Positions 1-36,109 of a stretch of 40,879 nucleotides of DNA are shown piece by piece. Under the pieces are notes generated by a model. That model had not been told where the DNA came from and did not search any database. It was given only the letters and a program-made list of their open reading frames with translations. Position 1 is the stretch's first letter, and each line of letters begins with the position of its first letter. A program made the translations under genes and the position numbers. This stretch comes from a virus: IMG/VR virus record IMGVR_UViG_3300029985_000077, positions 1-40,879 of that record, one strand, 5' to 3'.

Positions 1-2648
1 TAATTAGGTAAAAGTCTATTACCAGAACCATTTATATTTTCGACATGATGGATGACGCCAGAGGGTTTTTTAAATTGAGTAGGTAGCAAACTAAAATTAG
101 CATTTCCAGTCAAAGGCCAATAATTAAAGCCATCAAAATAAACCAAAGTAATATTATGATTAGATGTATCTTTCCCTACTATAGAATTCCCAGTAGAGGC
201 TAGTATGTTTGCCGGTGTCCAGTTTTGTTCATAGCCCCATGTCCCAGTTTGTATTTTAAAGCCAGAAAATCGAACTGGATTGGCACCCAGTCCCGTCGCT
301 ATTTGAAAATTATAACTTTTACCAGTAATGTTATATTGAAGAGAAAGGTTGCCTGTAATATCAGAGATATTTAACGGGAAATCAGATGTTCCAGCTCCAG
401 AAAAATAAATTAAATTTGAATTTCCTGTATATTGATATAAGTCAGTAGTGACGGCATTAGTTCCAGTTAAAGCAAACCCAGTATAGATTATATCACTAAT
501 TATCTGATAATTACCGGTTATGAAATAATCAAAGGGGTCAGACATATTACCATAACCATTAAGATAATATTGCATTCCAGTAATTCTCAAACCTAGTCCA
601 GAACCTTTGACTGGCCAGTATAAAAGATTAGAATCCCCTGTCGGATTAGGATAAGTTCCGACCCCATAACTACCACTAAAACCAGAAAACCCAGTGGTAT
701 ACCAAGGAGTATTATCAATTAGGCAAGTATCATATTCTCTCCCCAAAAAGTTCCAGCCGGTAATAATTCCATATACAGCACCCCAACCAGTTCCGCCGTT
801 ACAGTTTTCCATTCCTGTCACGCCTTGATTTAAAATCTCCCCAGTAAATAGATATCCAGAACCGCCAGCTTGAAGTTCGGGATGATTAATATCTAACCCA
901 GAAGCAGTGGTCGGGGTAATCGCAACACCGGGACCCATAAAACCGTATACATTATACAGGTTATTAATCGAACTTGGAGCTAAACCATTAGCCCCAGTAA
1001 TATCAAATCTCACTTGCGAGACACCGCTACCCCTGTCGGTCAGGCAAATATCTGGAATCAACCTATAATGAGGCGTATCCGCCGCCCTGCCCGAATTATT
1101 AAAGAAAAGAAAATCAACATAAGGTTGGAAAGTTAAGCTACCTATTGTTCCCACTGCGGAAAGATATCCTAATACTAGAGAACCGTATCTGCTATTAGTA
1201 CCAGCGCTTTGGATTGGAGAGAAGAGAGCGGACTTGGTGACTTTTTTATTTCTAATACCAACGCCACCAACCCCAGTTAAGGTAGAACCCGTTGGCGGTA
1301 ATCTTTTGAGATAGGTTGAGTAAACCGCTCTTTGGCCGTAATTTGCGTAACTAGAATTGATTCCTAAACTTCCCGGCGTTGCGAACGCTACTGGCTCTTG
1401 AGAGGTAATCGGAGAAACATATCCTTGCACTTGGTAAGTAAAAGCCGATGGAGAAATCGGGCTATCATTAATATAGTCTTGAATAGAAAGTAAATTCTGC
1501 AATCGGATATTAGAAGGAATCGTCACCGACGTTACAGTCGAAGGCCCATTTGATTGAGACCCGCCATTAGATAATCCCGAATAATACCACGCCACAGGAT
1601 TAGCGGGCCAAGAATTTTCCACCGTGCTATAAACACTTAAATCCCCGCCGACACTTGAAACAAATTCTGTATAATTGGCCATTACTCCGGGGGTATTATA
1701 CGCACCAGATTCGCTAATGCCCGTCGAACCATATGGACTTACTGCAAATTCAGAAATATCGGGAGATAGATAAAAATACAAGTTGGGACATTGAGAATAC
1801 ATCGGTTCCGCTTGGTCTCCCCACGCTGGAATGATACATGCCCCTAAAGAATCAACAATTTGAACCCCCGGATAAATTTGACTATAAATACCACTCAAAT
1901 TACTCCAGCCGCTTAAAAGTCCTAATTCAGAACCATTGGTTCCAATAGCCGCATTGCCAGTATTAAAGTAGCCGTTAGAATCCCCCTGAACACCAGAAAA
2001 ATAAGTATAAGTTTGATAATTATTGAAATTTAAGCTCAGTTGATAAGTTATAGTTGCGGTAAATCCAGATGGAATAGTTACCGTTCTATCTACCAAACTA
2101 AATGCTTGATTTCCTGTTATGTTTGCCCCGCTGCTTGGAGACACCATGAAGCCGTTGATGGTCAAAGCCTGTCCGAGAACTGCTCCGTTTTCATTAGCGC
2201 CGGTAGGAATCGTCCACCCACGATATAGATTAATTCCTTGATTAGTAAACTTAGTCCCGCAAGTAGAAGAAAAAGACCCCGCGAAAGTTGAATTATGCTG
2301 ACCGCCGATTTCGTATCCTTCCCAGCCTATATACTGTCCAGTATGTTGGTAATATCCGGTCGCGTTTGGTTGTTGAGCGTTGCCAGTGAATGTCGGGTCA
2401 TAAACTTGAAATGATTGAATGGGAGAATTTGTTCCCGTGTTTTGTTGTCTCAAAGAGCTGTAAACCCAAGCAGAACCACCTAGCGAAAGGAACATGAAAC
2501 AGTTCGCGAATGAATAAATAAAAGGATAGTTAAGACCTGCGTTGGTGATGTCGTTACTAAACCAAGGAGTTTCCTCAACTACCTTGCCCCCACTTTTAAG
2601 TTGGACTTGGTAACTGCCTTTGATTCCACAATTGATGCTTGAATTCAT
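1..2648 (-). CDS. Large tail/fibre-like virion protein, C-terminus outside window
   Basis: The minus-strand frame is open from an ATG at 2648 to the window edge, giving about 882 residues without a stop; the C-terminus is missing. The start is preceded by AAGAAGGC, a plausible SD. The protein is rich in Gly, Ser, Thr, Asn and aromatic residues, is poor in charged residues, and has very frequent TG, SG and NG turns (for example YFSG, GFSG, YNITG, LLSGW), like long beta-rich phage adhesion or baseplate proteins. It lies 18 bp downstream of the 248-aa beta-repeat gene and continues the late operon. The function is inferred from composition and context; no specific family was recognised. Confidence 0.75.
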   Translation of the reverse strand, partial: MNSSINCGIKGSYQVQLKSGGKVVEETPWFSNDITNAGLNYPFIYSFANCFMFLSLGGSAWVYSSLRQQNTGTNSPIQSFQVYDPTFTGNAQQPNATGYYQHTGQYIGWEGYEIGGQHNSTFAGSFSSTCGTKFTNQGINLYRGWTIPTGANENGAVLGQALTINGFMVSPSSGANITGNQAFSLVDRTVTIPSGFTATITYQLSLNFNNYQTYTYFSGVQGDSNGYFNTGNAAIGTNGSELGLLSGWSNLSGIYSQIYPGVQIVDSLGACIIPAWGDQAEPMYSQCPNLYFYLSPDISEFAVSPYGSTGISESGAYNTPGVMANYTEFVSSVGGDLSVYSTVENSWPANPVAWYYSGLSNGGSQSNGPSTVTSVTIPSNIRLQNLLSIQDYINDSPISPSAFTYQVQGYVSPITSQEPVAFATPGSLGINSSYANYGQRAVYSTYLKRLPPTGSTLTGVGGVGIRNKKVTKSALFSPIQSAGTNSRYGSLVLGYLSAVGTIGSLTFQPYVDFLFFNNSGRAADTPHYRLIPDICLTDRGSGVSQVRFDITGANGLAPSSINNLYNVYGFMGPGVAITPTTASGLDINHPELQAGGSGYLFTGEILNQGVTGMENCNGGTGWGAVYGIITGWNFLGREYDTCLIDNTPWYTTGFSGFSGSYGVGTYPNPTGDSNLLYWPVKGSGLGLRITGMQYYLNGYGNMSDPFDYFITGNYQIISDIIYTGFALTGTNAVTTDLYQYTGNSNLIYFSGAGTSDFPLNISDITGNLSLQYNITGKSYNFQIATGLGANPVRFSGFKIQTGTWGYEQNWTPANILASTGNSIVGKDTSNHNITLVYFDGFNYWPLTGNANFSLLPTQFKKPSGVIHHVENINGSGNRLLPN

Positions 2649-8137: not shown

Positions 8138-9981
8138 TAGACAAGAACTGGGGTGAAGCCTGAGTTGTCTTCGGGTGGGACATTCAAAATATCACTGTAT
8201 TGCTTCAAGGCCCATGTGACCAATAAAAGCGCAGTATATGAATCTCGACGCATTCTTGAACTTGTTTGGTCTCTTCTAAAGATTTGGGGTAGGTCAAAAC
8301 TTTGAGTCCCTTTGGAGGTTGATTTTACCTCAATAGAACTACATTCATATCGCGTTTGTTTAATAAGCGTCTCTTGAAGGTCAATAAAGTCGGTTAAATT
8401 TTCTTCTCCAACCCAATCCAAATTAACATTCGCTGACACAGCCTTATCAAAGGCGTTACCATCAGCTTTGATAGAGGAACCAAACCAAATTTTCTTGTAA
8501 TCAATACACCCTTGTAAATGTTCGTTACCTTTTCTGATAAAGTCAGTAGTAAAATATTGAGTAAATACAATTTTATTAATCTGTCTGTTATAACCACGTC
8601 TGGCAAGTTTTAATTGTTGTTCAAGTTCTGCTCCGTCTTTTTCGGCATAAAATTCAAATATCTTAAATTCAATTCCATCTTTTCTAAAGAGTTCGTTCTC
8701 GTTTACGGCGTCTAAAAACTGATATCCAGCATAGTCAATAATTATCATCACTATATCAAAATTCTTCCAAAGATAATATAGATACTTAATATGGTCTTTT
8801 AAGTCTTTTCCCGATTTGGCGTAGTTATGGACTACGGTCCCGCTTATTTTACCCTCATTCATCTTTTCTTCATCAACCTCCATTAGACACATAGCAAAAT
8901 TATCAGCAGTTTCAGAATTAGAGAAGTTAGGGTCAATAGATAAAATATACTTTTTATTCTTTTCACCTTTCAGCGTAAGAGTAGGAGATTCACAATCTGG
9001 AATCGTACAGGCTAGCATCTTATTCATTGAAAAATAACTGTCCGAGCCATCAATGAAGGTCGCCATGTACTCTCTTTTAAATGTCGCCGAATTAGCTTCG
9101 TTACCCTGTGCTAATTCGATAATAGCTTTATCCATCCTATGTTCTGGTATCGCATTCCAAGCCATTTGAGCTACAAAATACTTAGCTTTATTAACCGGCA
9201 TATCAGCACTATAGATTTGTTTAGCAAACTCATCGTACTTTTTATATAGATATTCGCAAGTAAAACTAGCAGAAGATAATCCTATAAATTTGGCGGTATT
9301 GGGGAATTGTATTCTATCTTTTTCGGTAATAACTCCTTTTCTTATTAACTCATCTTCTCTTTCTCGTATAATTTGTCTTTCTGTTAAATTTTGGGGGACT
9401 ACCAAGAACGGCATTAGGACCTTCTCAACTGTTTCTTCCGGCATAAGCAATAACTCATCTATAACAAGAACATTTGCCCTGTAACCACGGACCTTATCGC
9501 CACTAAGAGGAATAGAAATAATACTACCGCCGTTTATCTCTAACTTGAACTCGTCATTTCTTCTCGCCATCGTTCCTAATGCCTGATATAAGAGCTGGGC
9601 GTGTCTACCATCACTAATTTCGATAATTTTATTGAATATAAATCTTGACGTTCTAAAAGTCGGGCCACACACCAAGACATGACTATTAGGATGGAATATA
9701 CATTGCAAAACACAAAATACAGCAGAAATAAAAGTTTTTCCTGCGCCACGAGAGAGAATACATAAGGAATAATTACTCTGTAACATTGCCTTAAGCATGA
9801 TAATCTGGTCCGGGTCGAGAATAATCCCCGTCAGGACTTTAACTGTAAAACCCAGATTACGATACAAAAATTTAATTAAAGTAATTCTAGCCTCTTTATC
9901 ATTAAGCTCCCCTTTCAGAGTTTTGAGATAAATATTAATATCCTCGACTGGTTTCTGATATTTTAAAGGAGAATAAATCAT
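8137..9981 (-). CDS. Terminase large subunit (TerL), ATPase-nuclease
   Basis: 614 aa. TerL drives ATP-dependent DNA packaging into the prohead through the portal and cuts the concatemer. Visible motifs are Walker A SRGAGKTF (about 77-84), Walker B VLVIDE (about 171-176), a coupling motif region (GLSSAS), and an RNase H-like nuclease domain with acidic residues in LSIDPNF (about 347) and MIIIDYAGYQ (about 413). Length fits the family. Its start overlaps the stop of the upstream HNH gene (ATGA), so the two are cotranscribed. HNH genes adjacent to terminases are common in phages. Confidence 0.93.
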   Translation of the reverse strand: MIYSPLKYQKPVEDINIYLKTLKGELNDKEARITLIKFLYRNLGFTVKVLTGIILDPDQIIMLKAMLQSNYSLCILSRGAGKTFISAVFCVLQCIFHPNSHVLVCGPTFRTSRFIFNKIIEISDGRHAQLLYQALGTMARRNDEFKLEINGGSIISIPLSGDKVRGYRANVLVIDELLLMPEETVEKVLMPFLVVPQNLTERQIIREREDELIRKGVITEKDRIQFPNTAKFIGLSSASFTCEYLYKKYDEFAKQIYSADMPVNKAKYFVAQMAWNAIPEHRMDKAIIELAQGNEANSATFKREYMATFIDGSDSYFSMNKMLACTIPDCESPTLTLKGEKNKKYILSIDPNFSNSETADNFAMCLMEVDEEKMNEGKISGTVVHNYAKSGKDLKDHIKYLYYLWKNFDIVMIIIDYAGYQFLDAVNENELFRKDGIEFKIFEFYAEKDGAELEQQLKLARRGYNRQINKIVFTQYFTTDFIRKGNEHLQGCIDYKKIWFGSSIKADGNAFDKAVSANVNLDWVGEENLTDFIDLQETLIKQTRYECSSIEVKSTSKGTQSFDLPQIFRRDQTSSRMRRDSYTALLLVTWALKQYSDILNVPPEDNSGFTPVLV

Positions 9982-10931
9982 AGTATTTTATTACCTTTGT
10001 TTATGTTACCCTCTCTAGTAAAATCTCCATGTTTTCTTGCGATTTTAGTTGTCGCCCAAAGAGGTTGTTGATTTTTATAATTGAGTGCTATTTTTTGTTG
10101 TTCTATATCGGTAAAATCAAAATTAGATAGAGGTATAATGTGGTCCACATGCCACCCATAATGTCCATAATTCTTCCAAGACATATCTTGAGTCCATTGA
10201 GACTTTATATGATTTAGGAATTCTTCTATGGAGCAGCCCAAATATTCGGCACTGTGTAGGCTTTTTGATTCGCCTTTTATGACTTTATTAATTCTTTGAC
10301 GAAAATTTTCTTGTAACCTAAAGTTTATATCGTTGTTTCGTCTATCCTTCCAATATTGTCTATGATAAGCCCTATGCTTTTCGTAGTTGTTCTTAATCCA
10401 TTTATCTTTGGTCGCATCGCGCTTTTTTCTATTTTTTTGATAGTCTAGTTTTTTTCTTATTTTTAGTTTATCTCGATTTCTGATGCGACCCTGTTTTTCT
10501 TGTTCGCGAATTTTAACGATATTCTTTTTTCTTTTGAGTCTTTGGGTTTTGTTTAGCTTTTCTTTATTTTTTATGCGATAAACTCTACACGCCCCCAACA
10601 TTTCTTTTTTATGTTCTTTATAATATTTAGCGCAACGAAGTTTATGCTCATCTTTATGAGATAATCTATATGCTTTCATCTTAGCCTTAGCCTTTGTTTT
10701 ATTATTGTGATAATATTCACGAGACTTTTCTTTCATCCCTTCTTTATCTGCAAGATAGCGTTCTTTTCGTTTCGACTTGATTTCCGAGGTATGGGTCTTA
10801 ACGTATTCTTTTGATTTAATAGATGTGCATGGTTTACATATTCCACCGAAGCCATCTTTATTACGTTTATCTTTGTAAAATAAAAAGTATGATAGTTCCT
10901 GATGACAAACATTACATTTTTTAGTATTCAT
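9978..10931 (-). CDS. HNH endonuclease with zinc-finger N-terminus
   Basis: 317 aa. The N-terminus has a treble-clef zinc motif (CNVCHQE ... CKPC). A long Lys/Arg-rich helical region (residues about 40-210) probably binds DNA. The C-terminus is a homing-type HNH domain: LGCSIEEFLNHI, MSWKNYGHYGWHVDHIIPLS (H and D of WHVDH intact), then NYKNQQPLW. It overlaps both neighbours by 4 bp (ATGA junctions with TerL downstream and the ERCC4-type nuclease upstream), so it is embedded in the packaging operon. It may be a homing endonuclease or a packaging cofactor like terminase-associated HNH proteins. Confidence 0.85.
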   Translation of the reverse strand: MNTKKCNVCHQELSYFLFYKDKRNKDGFGGICKPCTSIKSKEYVKTHTSEIKSKRKERYLADKEGMKEKSREYYHNNKTKAKAKMKAYRLSHKDEHKLRCAKYYKEHKKEMLGACRVYRIKNKEKLNKTQRLKRKKNIVKIREQEKQGRIRNRDKLKIRKKLDYQKNRKKRDATKDKWIKNNYEKHRAYHRQYWKDRRNNDINFRLQENFRQRINKVIKGESKSLHSAEYLGCSIEEFLNHIKSQWTQDMSWKNYGHYGWHVDHIIPLSNFDFTDIEQQKIALNYKNQQPLWATTKIARKHGDFTREGNINKGNKIL

Positions 10932-12975: not shown

Positions 12976-13115
12976 ATAACGGTTTTAAACTTGGCGTTGT
13001 GTTTCTTACACCCGCAACAGAATGTATCCCAACAGTAAGGCAGTCTAAACTTAGATAATTGCTTATGTCCGCACTCTATGCAAACGTATACTTTATCAAT
13101 GTAATCCAGTTTCAT
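12960..13115 (-). CDS. Small zinc-ribbon protein
   Basis: 51 aa. Four main zinc ligands are CIECGHK (N-terminal) and CCGCKKH (C-terminal). The ATG lies inside the last codons of the sigma-like gene (20-bp overlap) and the C-terminus overlaps the 374-aa gene by 16 bp, so it is part of the same translationally coupled operon. Possible role in transcription or nucleic-acid binding; specific function unknown. Confidence 0.7.
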   Translation of the reverse strand: MKLDYIDKVYVCIECGHKQLSKFRLPYCWDTFCCGCKKHNAKFKTVICKKK

Positions 13116-13773
13116 TTAAGAACTCGCGGGCTTTTTCAATGATGGTTTTCTGTATAAGGAAGAGATTTTTATACCCCGGAACTCTGCCCAATTCATTCGT
13201 GGTGAAACCGATTTCCTTGGCAACTGCAGATTCCTCTTTGTGGTCAATATAGAGGCCGCTATAAACCGTAAATTCGATGGGCTTTAAAGTGGTCTTCATC
13301 GCCTCATGGAACTTGGGTTCGTCGGCGGGATTATATTCAGAGTAGTCTTGCATTTCGTGGACTTCGTTGGTATGATTTTCTATTGAAAGAGGGAGTTTAA
13401 TAAAAGAAGCTGATTGTTTTGTTGTTTGCCAATGGGCGTAGAGAGGACAAGCGTCACACTGAGTTTTGTAAATCTTGCAACCATCAGAGTCAATCGCCGC
13501 GTGACAACGGAGACATGGGCGGGCATAGTTGGTGTAGTGGTTGCGGACTAGATTTTTAATTTGGTTAGTAATTAGAGTAGAGAGCCAAGGTTTTAGTGGT
13601 TTAGATTGATTGTATTGATTCCACTTTTTATGAATGTGAATTATGATGATGGATGATATATCATTCCAATCCATCCAGTTGATACTATTCAGCGTCCATT
13701 TTCCTCGATGTTTCTGTACTTCGGTTCGTATCACTTCATAATTTTCTTCAAAAGAAGACTGTGGTTTTTTCAT
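13096..13773 (-). CDS. Phage sigma-70-like RNA polymerase factor
   Basis: 225 aa. Residues about 30-85 match sigma region 2 (WMDWNDISSIIIIHIHKKW, then PWLSTLITNQIKNLVRNHY). A zinc-binding insertion follows with Cys87, Cys90, Cys99, Cys106 and Cys109 (CLRC...CDAC). Residues about 160-220 form a region-4-like helix-turn-helix (ESAVAKEIGFTTNELGRVPG). Such factors redirect host RNA polymerase to phage promoters. It heads the packaging/structural operon, fitting a late regulator. Its own start has TATTAT 5 nt upstream but no clear -35. Candidate target motif: GTGTAATTW-N3-TATAAT. Confidence 0.75.
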   Translation of the reverse strand: MKKPQSSFEENYEVIRTEVQKHRGKWTLNSINWMDWNDISSIIIIHIHKKWNQYNQSKPLKPWLSTLITNQIKNLVRNHYTNYARPCLRCHAAIDSDGCKIYKTQCDACPLYAHWQTTKQSASFIKLPLSIENHTNEVHEMQDYSEYNPADEPKFHEAMKTTLKPIEFTVYSGLYIDHKEESAVAKEIGFTTNELGRVPGYKNLFLIQKTIIEKAREFLNETGLH

Positions 13774-14896: not shown

Positions 14897-15406
14897 TTAT
14901 CTTGCCACCATAATGGCTGTAAATTGGTATAATGATTTATTTTTTTTTATTTCTTCTGGATTATTTAAATCAAACTTACTAATAGGTTTGATGTGGTCCA
15001 CGTGCCAGCCGTAAAATGCGTGATTTTCCCAAGTCATTCCTTCCTTAAATTTAGATTCAAGATGTATTTTCAATTCCGACGGCGAACACCCAATCGTTTT
15101 GGATATTAAAAACGAAACTGGGGATTTTAATATATCTTTGATTCTTCTTCTCAGTGTCGTTGCTATCTTACCCGCAGGAGATTTTATATACTTTGCACGA
15201 TATTTTTTTATTTTGTCTTTATTATTGATATTCCAATTCTTCATGGCCGCCATAATTAATTGTTTATTGGGGTGTTTGTGATATCTTTCGTTGCTCTTTA
15301 TACTGGCACATATCTTACAACTACGCTGTCTCCACTTCTTTTTAGACGTTAAGTAAAAATCTTCTATTGGTTTATCTTGTTTACAAATATTACATATTCT
15401 TGTCAT
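14897..15406 (-). CDS. HNH endonuclease, C-terminus lost by frameshift at A9
   Basis: 169 aa as read. Zinc-finger N-terminus (CNICKQ ... CKIC) and HNH core GMTWENHAFYGWHVDHIKPI are intact. After FDLNNPEEIKK the frame runs out as NKSLYQFTAIMVAR and stops. A shift of one base in the coding-strand run of nine A (about 14938-14946) restores the family C-terminus, NHYTNLQPLWWQDNLRKGNT, and continues to a TAA at 14833-14835. With A8 the gene would be an intact 190-aa HNH protein. It is a decayed gene, a slippage-decoded gene or a sequencing error. Upstream TATAAT lies 4 nt before the ATG, without -35. Confidence 0.75.
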   Translation of the reverse strand: MTRICNICKQDKPIEDFYLTSKKKWRQRSCKICASIKSNERYHKHPNKQLIMAAMKNWNINNKDKIKKYRAKYIKSPAGKIATTLRRRIKDILKSPVSFLISKTIGCSPSELKIHLESKFKEGMTWENHAFYGWHVDHIKPISKFDLNNPEEIKKNKSLYQFTAIMVAR

Positions 15407-15681: not shown

Positions 15682-16275
15682 TCAAATAATCTTGGGTAAT
15701 TTTAAAAGTCGAGAATTGGTTTTATTTTTTCTTTGTTTTTCAAATCTGTTGGCTTTGTAATCGGGGGTGAGATTAGTATAATGGTTAATTTTAACAACCT
15801 CGGCGGGATTATGCAGGTCAAATTCAATAATCGCTTTTATTCTTACAACCTCCCATAGCTTACCGTAGTTTTCCCAAGTCATATCCGGTAACCATAAGGA
15901 TTCGATGTAGGCCTTGAATTCGGCGGGCTTCAATTGGACTTTGCTGATGAGACCTGTTTTACGTTTTAATCGTTTAGTTAAAGAACCAGATAGTCTGGCC
16001 CAAGGATTATTTTGAGAATATTGTTTTTGTTGTGATTTCATGTGTGGTCGATTTTTAGACTGCCATGCTTTTACTTGTTTGACGCATTTCTCTTTGTAAT
16101 TTTGGTCTTGGGCGTATTTTACTTTGCGTTTGTCTTGGATACATTTTTGACAATAAGACGTTAATCCGTCTTTAGTGTTAGATTGATTTCTAAACTCTTG
16201 ATAAGGCTTCTCTATAAGACAAGAGGTGCAGGTCTTAAATAAGACTATTTCTTTAATTTGTTGTTTTTTACTCAT
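15682..16275 (-). CDS. Degenerate HNH endonuclease-like protein
   Basis: 197 aa from the ATG at 16275 (a GTG at 16284 is possible). N-terminal zinc motif (CTSCLIEK ... CQKC) and the LKPAEFKAYIESLWLPDMTWENYG region are family-like. Where relatives read WHVDHIKPIS this protein reads WEVVRIKAII, so the His, Asp and His of the core are replaced. NHYTNLTPDY replaces NHYTNLQPLW. Predicted inactive or repurposed for DNA binding only. The start overlaps the stop of the upstream HNH gene by 8 nt (ATGAGTAA). Confidence 0.7.
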   Translation of the reverse strand: MSKKQQIKEIVLFKTCTSCLIEKPYQEFRNQSNTKDGLTSYCQKCIQDKRKVKYAQDQNYKEKCVKQVKAWQSKNRPHMKSQQKQYSQNNPWARLSGSLTKRLKRKTGLISKVQLKPAEFKAYIESLWLPDMTWENYGKLWEVVRIKAIIEFDLHNPAEVVKINHYTNLTPDYKANRFEKQRKNKTNSRLLKLPKII

Positions 16276-16795
16276 ATTTATCACCTTTTCTACCGTTATC
16301 TTCTGCCCACATTGGTTGTAGATTAGTATAGTGATTTACAAGTTTTAAATCTTCTAATTTAGACAAATCAAATCTACTCATGGGCTTAATATGGTCAACA
16401 TTCCATTCATCGTTTCCAGAACCGTAATTTTGCCAAGTCATTCCCTCTTTAAACTGTGGTTCAAGATGCTGTTTAAGGAATAAATTGGTACATCCTGTTA
16501 ATTTTGACTTACTGATGTTGAATTTAGGTTGATTTGTTGTTTTTAATATCTTTCTTACCCGATTACGTAAGTTTTGCTTCAATCTTAATATTGGAGACCG
16601 CTTTAGTTTAGCTCTGTCCCATTCTCGTTGCCGCAAAAAGGAATGTATTTGACTAAGGGTTTTAATGCTTAAGACTAGATTACATCCTTCACATTCATCG
16701 TGTTTCCAATAAATCCAATGAGGGAATTTAATGATTTTATTATGTTTCTTTTTACTACACTCACCGCATTCTTTAAATAACAATAACTGTTCCAT
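16268..16795 (-). CDS. HNH endonuclease
   Basis: 175 aa. Two Cys pairs near the N-terminus (CGEC, CEGC), LTGCTNLFLKQHLEPQF and the HNH core MTWQNYGSGNDEWNVDHIKP, then NHYTNLQPMWAEDN. The DH pair is intact; the first His of WHVDH is Asn. TATAAT ends 5 nt before the ATG within TAGTGTATAAT, similar to the late-promoter motif. Likely homing endonuclease; no obvious intron or target gene adjoins it. Confidence 0.8.
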   Translation of the reverse strand: MEQLLLFKECGECSKKKHNKIIKFPHWIYWKHDECEGCNLVLSIKTLSQIHSFLRQREWDRAKLKRSPILRLKQNLRNRVRKILKTTNQPKFNISKSKLTGCTNLFLKQHLEPQFKEGMTWQNYGSGNDEWNVDHIKPMSRFDLSKLEDLKLVNHYTNLQPMWAEDNGRKGDKYE

Positions 16796-21991: not shown

Positions 21992-22181
21992 TTGACAATA
22001 GTTGAGAAATAGTGTAAAGTTTTAAGAGTGTTAGGTTACTGGAATAAGTCCCTTTGACCTCCGGTAAAAATCCGGCGTAGGCGGCACGATACGTCCACCA
22101 AATTTTAGAATCTTGTCTGTGAATCGGGGTTGCTAGTCCGCGCTTGCGCGAAACGCACAACGGAGTAACAGACTAGAATTT
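21992..22181 (+). ncRNA. Structured leader/RNA upstream of tRNA
   Basis: Promoter TTGACA 21992-21997, 17 nt, TAAAGT 22015-22020, start about 22027. The ~155 nt before the tRNA has no ORF, contains a CCGG-TAAAAAT-CCGG hairpin, a CCACCA at 22095-22100 and GTCTGT/ACAGAC arms (22115-22120 with 22167-22172). I could not fold it as a tRNA. It may be a separate RNA or a tRNA precursor. Confidence 0.4.
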
Positions 22182-22257
22182 TACGGGTTGGAGAAGTGGT
22201 TATCTCGTTGCGCTCATAACGCAAAGTTCGGTCGTTCGATTCGGCCACCCGTTACCA
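22182..22257 (+). tRNA. tRNA-Met (CAT), initiator-like
   Basis: Cloverleaf by hand: acceptor TACGGGT/ACCCGTT (first pair T-T mismatch), D stem GAGA/TCTC with loop AGTGGTTA, anticodon stem TTGCG/CGCAA with loop CTCATAA (anticodon CAT at 22215-22217), variable loop AGTTC, T stem GGTCG/CGGCC with loop TTCGATT, discriminator A and encoded CCA at 22255-22257. An unpaired 1:72 position and an A11:U24 pair are hallmarks of bacterial initiator tRNA. The GGG/CCC anticodon-stem signature is not exact (GCG/CGC). A tRNA-Ile2 (lysidine CAU) is the alternative. Confidence 0.8.
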
Positions 22258-35257: not shown

Positions 35258-36109
35258 ATGGATATGAGAGAAATTTATGATATAATCACGAAGCGGACAT
35301 TCACAATTCAAGATGGAGGAATCCGTGCATGGTGTCGGTCAATAAAAACGAAGCATAGAACCAATAGAGAAATAGATAGGGGGCTACATATTTTAGGAAG
35401 ATATATTTCGCCCAATAATAAAGATAAAATTTTTACCTTGATTGATTTTGACACGGCGCAAGAATATGATTGTATTTGTAATACTACCCTTGAGTATTAC
35501 TTCAATAAAAAAATGACCATGAACGAAATCAAATATGTTTTTGAACTCAAACGCAAAAGACAAAATCTGGCCTCTATTCTAGGGAGAGTATTCTATCTAA
35601 AGGGTAGTCCACCCAAGAAAACCCCTTTTAAAGCTATGAAAAATATGTCCCCGCAATATAAAAGTAATTTTATTCAACAAAAATATAAAACTAAATTACA
35701 ATCAAAAATTTATCACGCTCTTTTAAGCAGAATTAATTACTCAATAAAAAATAAAACAAAATCATCCAAAGAATTAACTGGTTGTAATGTAAGTTTTCTG
35801 ATGGGATATTTGGAAAAACAGTTCGCCAAAGAAATGACGTGGAGTAATTATGGTAATGGTGGATGGCATATAGACCACATAAAACCTTGTGATTTATTCA
35901 ATTTAGAAGATGAAAAGCAAAAAATGGAGTGTTTCCATTATTCCAACCTTCAACCACTTTGGTCAACAACCAAAATAGCAATGCAACATGGCCAAGATGA
36001 AACCTATATTGGAAACCTAGATAAAAACGCTAAAAATATTAAAGGCGGGGTTGCCTTGCCTGTTGTCGTTGTAGCCGAAGAAACTGTTTCCACAGAAGAA
36101 CTCCTATAG
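35258..36109 (+). CDS. HNH endonuclease, inserted against the local strand
   Basis: 283 aa. Long basic N-terminus, then LTGCNVSFLMGYLEKQF, MTWSNYGNGGWHIDHIKP (HNH core intact) and CFHYSNLQPLWSTTKIAM, close to the 9978-10931 HNH C-terminus. It is the only plus-strand gene in the 28.9-40.9 kb block. Its last ~25 residues (ALPVVVVAEETVSTEELL) are read antisense through the end of the peptidase gene, suggesting recent insertion. No SD before the ATG. Confidence 0.82.
   Translation: MDMREIYDIITKRTFTIQDGGIRAWCRSIKTKHRTNREIDRGLHILGRYISPNNKDKIFTLIDFDTAQEYDCICNTTLEYYFNKKMTMNEIKYVFELKRKRQNLASILGRVFYLKGSPPKKTPFKAMKNMSPQYKSNFIQQKYKTKLQSKIYHALLSRINYSIKNKTKSSKELTGCNVSFLMGYLEKQFAKEMTWSNYGNGGWHIDHIKPCDLFNLEDEKQKMECFHYSNLQPLWSTTKIAMQHGQDETYIGNLDKNAKNIKGGVALPVVVVAEETVSTEELL

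Follow-up and report, generated by a model that had tools for sequence, protein, structure and literature searches.

Our analysis of a 40,879-base virus record (IMG/VR IMGVR_UViG_3300029985_000077, positions 1-40,879; hereafter the window) revealed a tRNA gene at 22182-22257 whose product, judged from its sequence, very probably belongs to the initiator class. The best explanation overall is that the phage encodes an initiator-class tRNA, a reading to which we assign a probability of about two in three; its most likely use, though less probable than not, would be as a spare initiator. The tRNA combines a natural anticodon stem like that of the laboratory tRNAfMet variant M1 with a phage-type D-stem, and is new within a known, mostly unlabelled set of phage initiator-type tRNAs. 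Its features are as follows.

22182-22257, plus strand: gene for an initiator-type tRNA with anticodon CAU and encoded CCA (22255-22257) (ARAGORN, Rfam, initiator score)
22182, plus strand: U1 facing U72 (22253), acceptor end open (direct reading, fold)
22191-22206, plus strand: D-arm GAGA/UCUC with A11:U24 (22192:22205) and A13:U22 (22194:22203)
22208-22224, plus strand: anticodon arm UUGCG-CUCAUAA-CGCAA with C30:G40 (22211:22221), anticodon at 22215-22217

ARAGORN found a single tRNA in the window, tRNA-Met(cat) at 22182-22257 on the plus strand, and a local Rfam search matched RF00005 over 22182-22254 (52.7 bits, E 2.8e-10). The tRNA was picked up neither by the whole-window Rfam search, which uses the gathering threshold and fast filters, nor by a record-wide RF00005 search; because the local search recovers it, we discounted both misses as a filter effect. 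By standard numbering the tRNA reads UACGGGU-UG-GAGA-AGUGGUUA-UCUC-G-UUGCG-CUCAUAA-CGCAA-AGUUC-GGUCG-UUCGAUU-CGGCC-ACCCGUU-A-CCA, and the cloverleaf is the minimum-free-energy fold of 22182-22257. All stems are fully paired with the sole exception of U1·U72, so that the unpaired 1:72 position proposed in an earlier note on this DNA is borne out by direct reading and by the fold. Base -1 (22181) is likewise U, and a 5′ end longer by one base would therefore also be unpaired with U72; no plausible 5′ end pairs with position 72, whereas such pairing would, according to the earlier note, have spoken against an initiator. The D-stem consists of G10 A11 G12 A13 and U22 C23 U24 C25, with the A11:U24 pair where it had been claimed (A22192:U22205). 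The three G:C pairs described for the anticodon stem are also present, in an order other than GGG/CCC: 29:41 is G:C, 30:40 is C:G and 31:39 is G:C (GCG/CGC). The acceptor stem contains A2:U71, C3:G70 and G4:C69 and is followed by A73 and the encoded CCA; the tRNA also carries U7:A66, U28:A42 and U46. The description in the earlier note proved accurate wherever we compared it, but A2:U71, A13:U22 and U46 are not mentioned there.

To assign the isotype, we used a home-made classifier (position-by-position log-odds score, leave-one-out) based on 88 distinct CAU tRNAs of three bacterial phyla (some 40 genomes), which were gathered by a pattern blind to the D-arm and the acceptor stem and grouped by 11:24 (R11:Y24, initiators; Y11:R24, elongators and Ile2). 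The window tRNA scored +41.5, with true initiators at 46.2 or above and elongators and Ile2 tRNAs at -18.4 or below, in agreement with the initiator-like identity that had been suggested from the letters; a clear preference for elongator Met or Ile2, which the earlier note had named as evidence to the contrary, was not seen. Since the groups were labelled by 11:24, the score without positions 1, 72, 11 and 24 matters, and here the tRNA, at +23.3, still fell near the initiators (minimum 28.3) and far from the elongators (maximum -0.8). When the D-stem was left out too, it scored +13.0, between the lowest true initiator (18.0) and the highest elongator (11.2), and the separation was no longer clear. 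It is identical to the best viral initiator-type tRNA at 60/73 positions, to the best bacterial initiator at 56/73 and to the best elongator at 50/73. Among the bacterial R11:Y24 CAU tRNAs, 1:72 is mismatched in 30/31, and the U1·U72 of the window tRNA occurs in 4/31, which makes it a natural initiator mismatch. The anticodon stem is GGG/CCC in 29 of these 31 and AGG/CCU in the other 2, so the strict GGG/CCC order is not universal in initiators.

Compared with the bacterial initiator tRNAfMet, the phage tRNA shares the unpaired 1:72, A11:U24, C3:G70, G4:C69, the loop CUCAUAA, A73 and CCA. It differs in having A2:U71 instead of G2:C71, the D-stem GAGA/UCUC instead of GAGC/GCUC, the anticodon stem GCG/CGC instead of GGG/CCC, U46, and a D-loop shorter than that of E. 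coli. G2:C71, which is replaced here, is present in 31/31 bacterial initiators and in 118/133 viral initiator-type tRNAs. Formylation is determined by G2:C71, C3:G70, A11:U24 and the 1:72 mismatch (PMC7949028); among the helper pairs, the window tRNA has C3:G70, and its 2:71 pair is A:U. Initiator tRNAs of all domains have been described as conserving G:C pairs at three successive positions of the anticodon stem (PMC4611024, PMC7949028), and their special loop structure involves G29:C41, G31:C39, C32, A37 and A38 (PMC4611024), all of which are kept in the window tRNA. The exchange of G30:C40 for C30:G40 has been made in E. coli as tRNAfMet M1, which is reported to lower translation about 20-fold in vivo, to loosen the A-minor interactions made by A1339 and G1338 of the 16S rRNA and to lose discrimination against CUG, with its grip partly restored by IF2 (PMC11497404). 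The 29-31/39-41 triplet of the phage tRNA, GCG/CGC, is identical to that of M1. However, M1 was constructed from the E. coli tRNA, has C1·A72 and is otherwise wild type, whereas the phage tRNA occurs in nature and has many further sequence differences.

Initiator-type tRNAs are present in well over 130 viral contigs, and numerous phages in culture, among them phiCbK, Aeromonas 65 and D3, have one as well. Pattern scans of IMG/VR found initiator-type CAU tRNAs in at least 118-120 contigs; a narrower scan, limited to 9-nt D-loops and thereby excluding the type of the window tRNA itself, found 34. Because A11:U24 and the loop CUCAUAA were required by the scan patterns, these two are not independent features of the viral sample; no constraint was placed on 1:72, on pairs 29-31 or on position 13. 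Among 133 distinct viral R11:Y24 tRNAs, 1:72 is open in 100, the GAGA D-stem (A13:U22) occurs in 45, compared with 0/31 distinct bacterial initiators, and GGG/CCC is found in only 29, including 3 of the 45 with GAGA; these proportions are approximate, since some IMG/VR contigs whose tRNA has a GGG/CCC or AGG/CCU stem may derive from the host, where it borders a prophage. The window tRNA, with A11:U24, A13:U22 and the loop CUCAUAA, fits this GAGA/UCUC class. In bacteria the GAGA pattern was found in 7/1191 genomes (0/398 Bacillota, 6/395 Bacteroidota, 1/398 Pseudomonadota). All six Bacteroidota matches have host-type GGG stems, and the Pseudomonadota match lies on a 5.6-kb MAG contig with an RNA ligase (PF09414, PHA02142 OB-fold) and four tRNAs, which looks like phage DNA inside the MAG. 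Another contig of the same MAG carries a terminase related to that of the window. A complete scan for initiator-type tRNAs with C30:G40 yielded 52 viral contigs; 43 distinct sequences were parsed, including the window tRNA, of which 14 are GCG/CGC. The same search of 398 Pseudomonadota genomes gave no match.

A composed consensus probe of the class matched 232 annotated phage records; in most of these the match covers 80% of the probe or more. Not all matches are initiator-type, as the PfAn1 tRNA has an elongator D-stem; those which are include Caulobacter phages phiCbK and CcrSC, Prevotella phage Lak-B1 and Aeromonas phage AP1, and an earlier search had identified Aeromonas phage 65 and Pseudomonas phage D3. 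Almost all phage initiator-type tRNAs are annotated as tRNA-Met; that of CcrSC is noted as "tRNA-fMet". The tRNAs of 65, D3, phiCbK, CcrSC and Lak-B1 resemble the window tRNA in their A11:U24 D-stem and initiator-like acceptor end, and those of 65 and D3 also in the GAGA/UCUC D-arm and short D-loop; the phage 65 tRNA is 74% identical to it over 97%. Unlike the window tRNA, the cultured-phage initiator-type tRNAs that we examined keep G30:C40 and are without GCG/CGC. The D3 tRNA (L124:1497-1572) has C33 and the loop CCCATAA, at a position where U33 is near-universal. In 62/96 viral loci of at least 8 kb the initiator-type tRNA is the sole tRNA, so it is unlikely to be carried along merely as part of a large tRNA cluster.

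Judging from these features, the tRNA is probably used in initiation. From established biology, the CAU anticodon would direct charging by MetRS, and the host formyltransferase would formylate the tRNA, perhaps less well owing to A2:U71. It would then enter the P site and start phage and host proteins. Because its anticodon stem has C30:G40 as in M1, a weaker P-site grip and weaker start-codon discrimination would be expected, and by analogy with the approximately 20-fold drop of M1 it could be a poor initiator. Its most likely use would be as a spare initiator during infection, at a time when the initiator tRNA of the host runs short or comes under attack. Known attackers of initiator tRNA are VapC, which cuts the anticodon arm, and AtaT, which acetylates Met-tRNAfMet (PMC7180214); enzymes of both types are candidates here, and the stem changes may reduce recognition by them. 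Depletion of tRNAs as a defence, with phage tRNAs as the counter, is an established proposal (PMC10264068). The nuclease-evading tRNAs of that study are likewise phage-encoded with anticodon-arm changes relative to their hosts; however, the published evasion model rests on changes in the anticodon loop (PMC10264068), whereas those of the window tRNA lie in the stem. Its loop is unchanged from the host type, which we counted against an evasion role, and the spare or nuclease-resistant role is a tentative suggestion. We consider it rather unlikely that phages have repeatedly evolved initiator tRNAs which keep the formylation and P-site features on rewritten stems, as natural equivalents of M1, and which thus escape attackers and relax start-codon selection for phage messages.

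Two other readings concern the nature of the tRNA itself. The tRNA could be an elongator, either Met or lysidine-modified Ile2, that has initiator-like features by coincidence, as phage CAU tRNAs can be of either kind and E. coli elongator tRNAMet also has C30:G40 as the central pair of its anticodon stem (PMC11497404). However, among Y11:R24 CAU tRNAs 1:72 is paired in 56/56 bacterial cases and open in 0/15 viral ones, and the window tRNA has R11:Y24 together with an open 1:72 and an initiator score; since the traits of elongator Met and Ile2 tRNAs (a pyrimidine at 11 facing a purine at 24, a paired 1:72) are absent from it, we regard this explanation as very improbable. Alternatively, the gene might be a decoy or inert carry-over, that is, a host-derived initiator tRNA diverging under weak constraint and without benefit for initiation. 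The departures A2:U71, C30:G40, U28:A42, U7:A66 and U46 would fit such a history, as would the absence of the tRNA from every relative examined, by which it was either gained recently or is often lost. Decay of this kind nevertheless seems unlikely for a molecule in which everything in the stems pairs except the functional 1:72 mismatch, each stem departure is a compensated pair and CCA is retained. Moreover, similar stem changes occur in many unrelated viral contigs with the 1:72 mismatch mostly kept.

The earlier note had also proposed that a phage-supplied initiator could favour the leaderless genes of the phage, in which case the tRNA would be kept since extra initiator helps its own leaderless mRNAs. 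The relevant promoters are located as follows.

19070-40668, both strands: leaderless-type promoters of many genes
19977, 21088, 25287 and 27919, plus strand: examples of leaderless-type promoters
29399, 33048 and 34076, minus strand: further examples

The first part of this proposal held: among 41 promoters in the window with the form TTGAC(A/T)-15..18-TAnnnT, 23 have an ATG exactly 6 nt past the -10 box, a spacing which places the predicted transcription start at the A of the ATG. The typical form is TTGAC(A/T), about 17 nt, an extended -10 box (often TCTGcTAnnnT), 6 nt and ATG. Binned by ATG spacing, 28 promoters fall at 4-8 nt and 0-6 in each other 5-nt bin, and 26 leaderless-type starts open frames of at least 40 codons. 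A link to the tRNA is biochemically plausible, because raised fMet-tRNA increases leaderless translation strongly and canonical translation only mildly (PMC9031893). In addition, the three G:C pairs are important for the transition from 30S to 70S (PMC7949028), a step bypassed when 70S ribosomes initiate on leaderless mRNAs, so that a C30:G40 tRNA may be less handicapped there. On the other hand, M1 needs IF2 for the partial rescue of its grip (PMC11497404), and factor-poor 70S initiation would be without IF2. Comparison did not support the link either. The nearest relative, IMGVR_UViG_3300023184_009677 (65.7 kb), is related in its late genes (35-67%) and also in its early genes (67% for the clamp loader), and its promoters show the leaderless spacing too, 17 of them at exactly 6 nt; yet it contains no CAU tRNA in its 65.7 kb, its sole tRNA being Arg(tct) (L351:10980-11056). 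The initiator-type pattern was found in 0/27 terminase-relative records, most of which are fragments, and in 154 contigs with initiator-type tRNAs the leaderless spacing was hardly, if at all, more frequent than control spacings (2 and 19 against control means of about 2.3 and 12.5). Service to leaderless mRNAs is thus an improbable reason for keeping the tRNA, and we prefer the spare initiator.

Viral initiator-type tRNAs often break the rule of three G:C pairs yet keep the other initiator features, and natural sequences such as this C30:G40 tRNA allow tests of what the three pairs do. Such tRNAs may also enable an infecting phage to maintain initiation or to bias it. It has been stated that phages, in the cases examined, generally avoid encoding tRNA-fMet (PMC10264068). 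In contrast, initiator-type tRNAs are common in phages in our data, and because most such genes bear the label tRNA-Met alone, the generality of this avoidance is in question.

The gene lies in the following upstream context.

21992-22020, plus strand: candidate promoter TTGACA-17-TAAAGT (consensus match alone), some 160 nt before the tRNA gene
22021-22181, plus strand: non-coding leader from the candidate promoter to the tRNA

The leader matches only itself across the comparison loci, and the 281 nt around the tRNA show no folding advantage over shuffled sequences (z 0.09). A conserved structured leader, which had neither a relative nor a fold signal, was dropped as a candidate. The exact 37-nt core of the tRNA has no copy in IMG/VR, and a blastn search of phages with the region around the tRNA gave no match.

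Genes in the window include those for a terminase, a collagen-like tail fibre, an ERCC4 nuclease, a clamp-loader-like ATPase and a GP88-type protein. Relatives of the terminase in named genomes comprise only two MAG contigs (about 50% identity) and, further away, distant Bacillus and Clostridium phages (about 25%). Formyltransferase, deformylase, RNA ligase and integrase are absent from the family matches of the window proteins tested. Further features of the window are listed here.

9978-10931, 14897-15406, 15682-16284 and 16268-16795, minus strand: HNH-type proteins (by eye)
35258-36109, plus strand: HNH-type protein (by eye)
13096-13773, minus strand: weak sigma-70 region 2 match (E 2.8e-4, below the Pfam cut-off)
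19819, 19858, 22415, 23582, 24246, 27220, 27618, 28831 and 28870, plus strand: dispersed repeat ATCAACGACTTACG
24192 and 21662, minus strand: dispersed repeat ATCAACGACTTACG

The five HNH-type proteins look paralogous by eye, with paired cysteines and W-x-VDH motifs; the two that were searched gave no Pfam match. One of the genes (9978-10931) stands between the terminase and ERCC4 genes and looks like an insertion, because these two are neighbours in the relative L005. A possible role for the product of 13096-13773, conserved at 60% in L005, is that of a phage sigma factor acting on late genes. The dispersed repeat around ATCAACGACTTACG is present in 11 copies with at most 2 mismatches, compared with about 0.08 per strand in shuffles, and related copies occur in another locus (L255:17205-17262).
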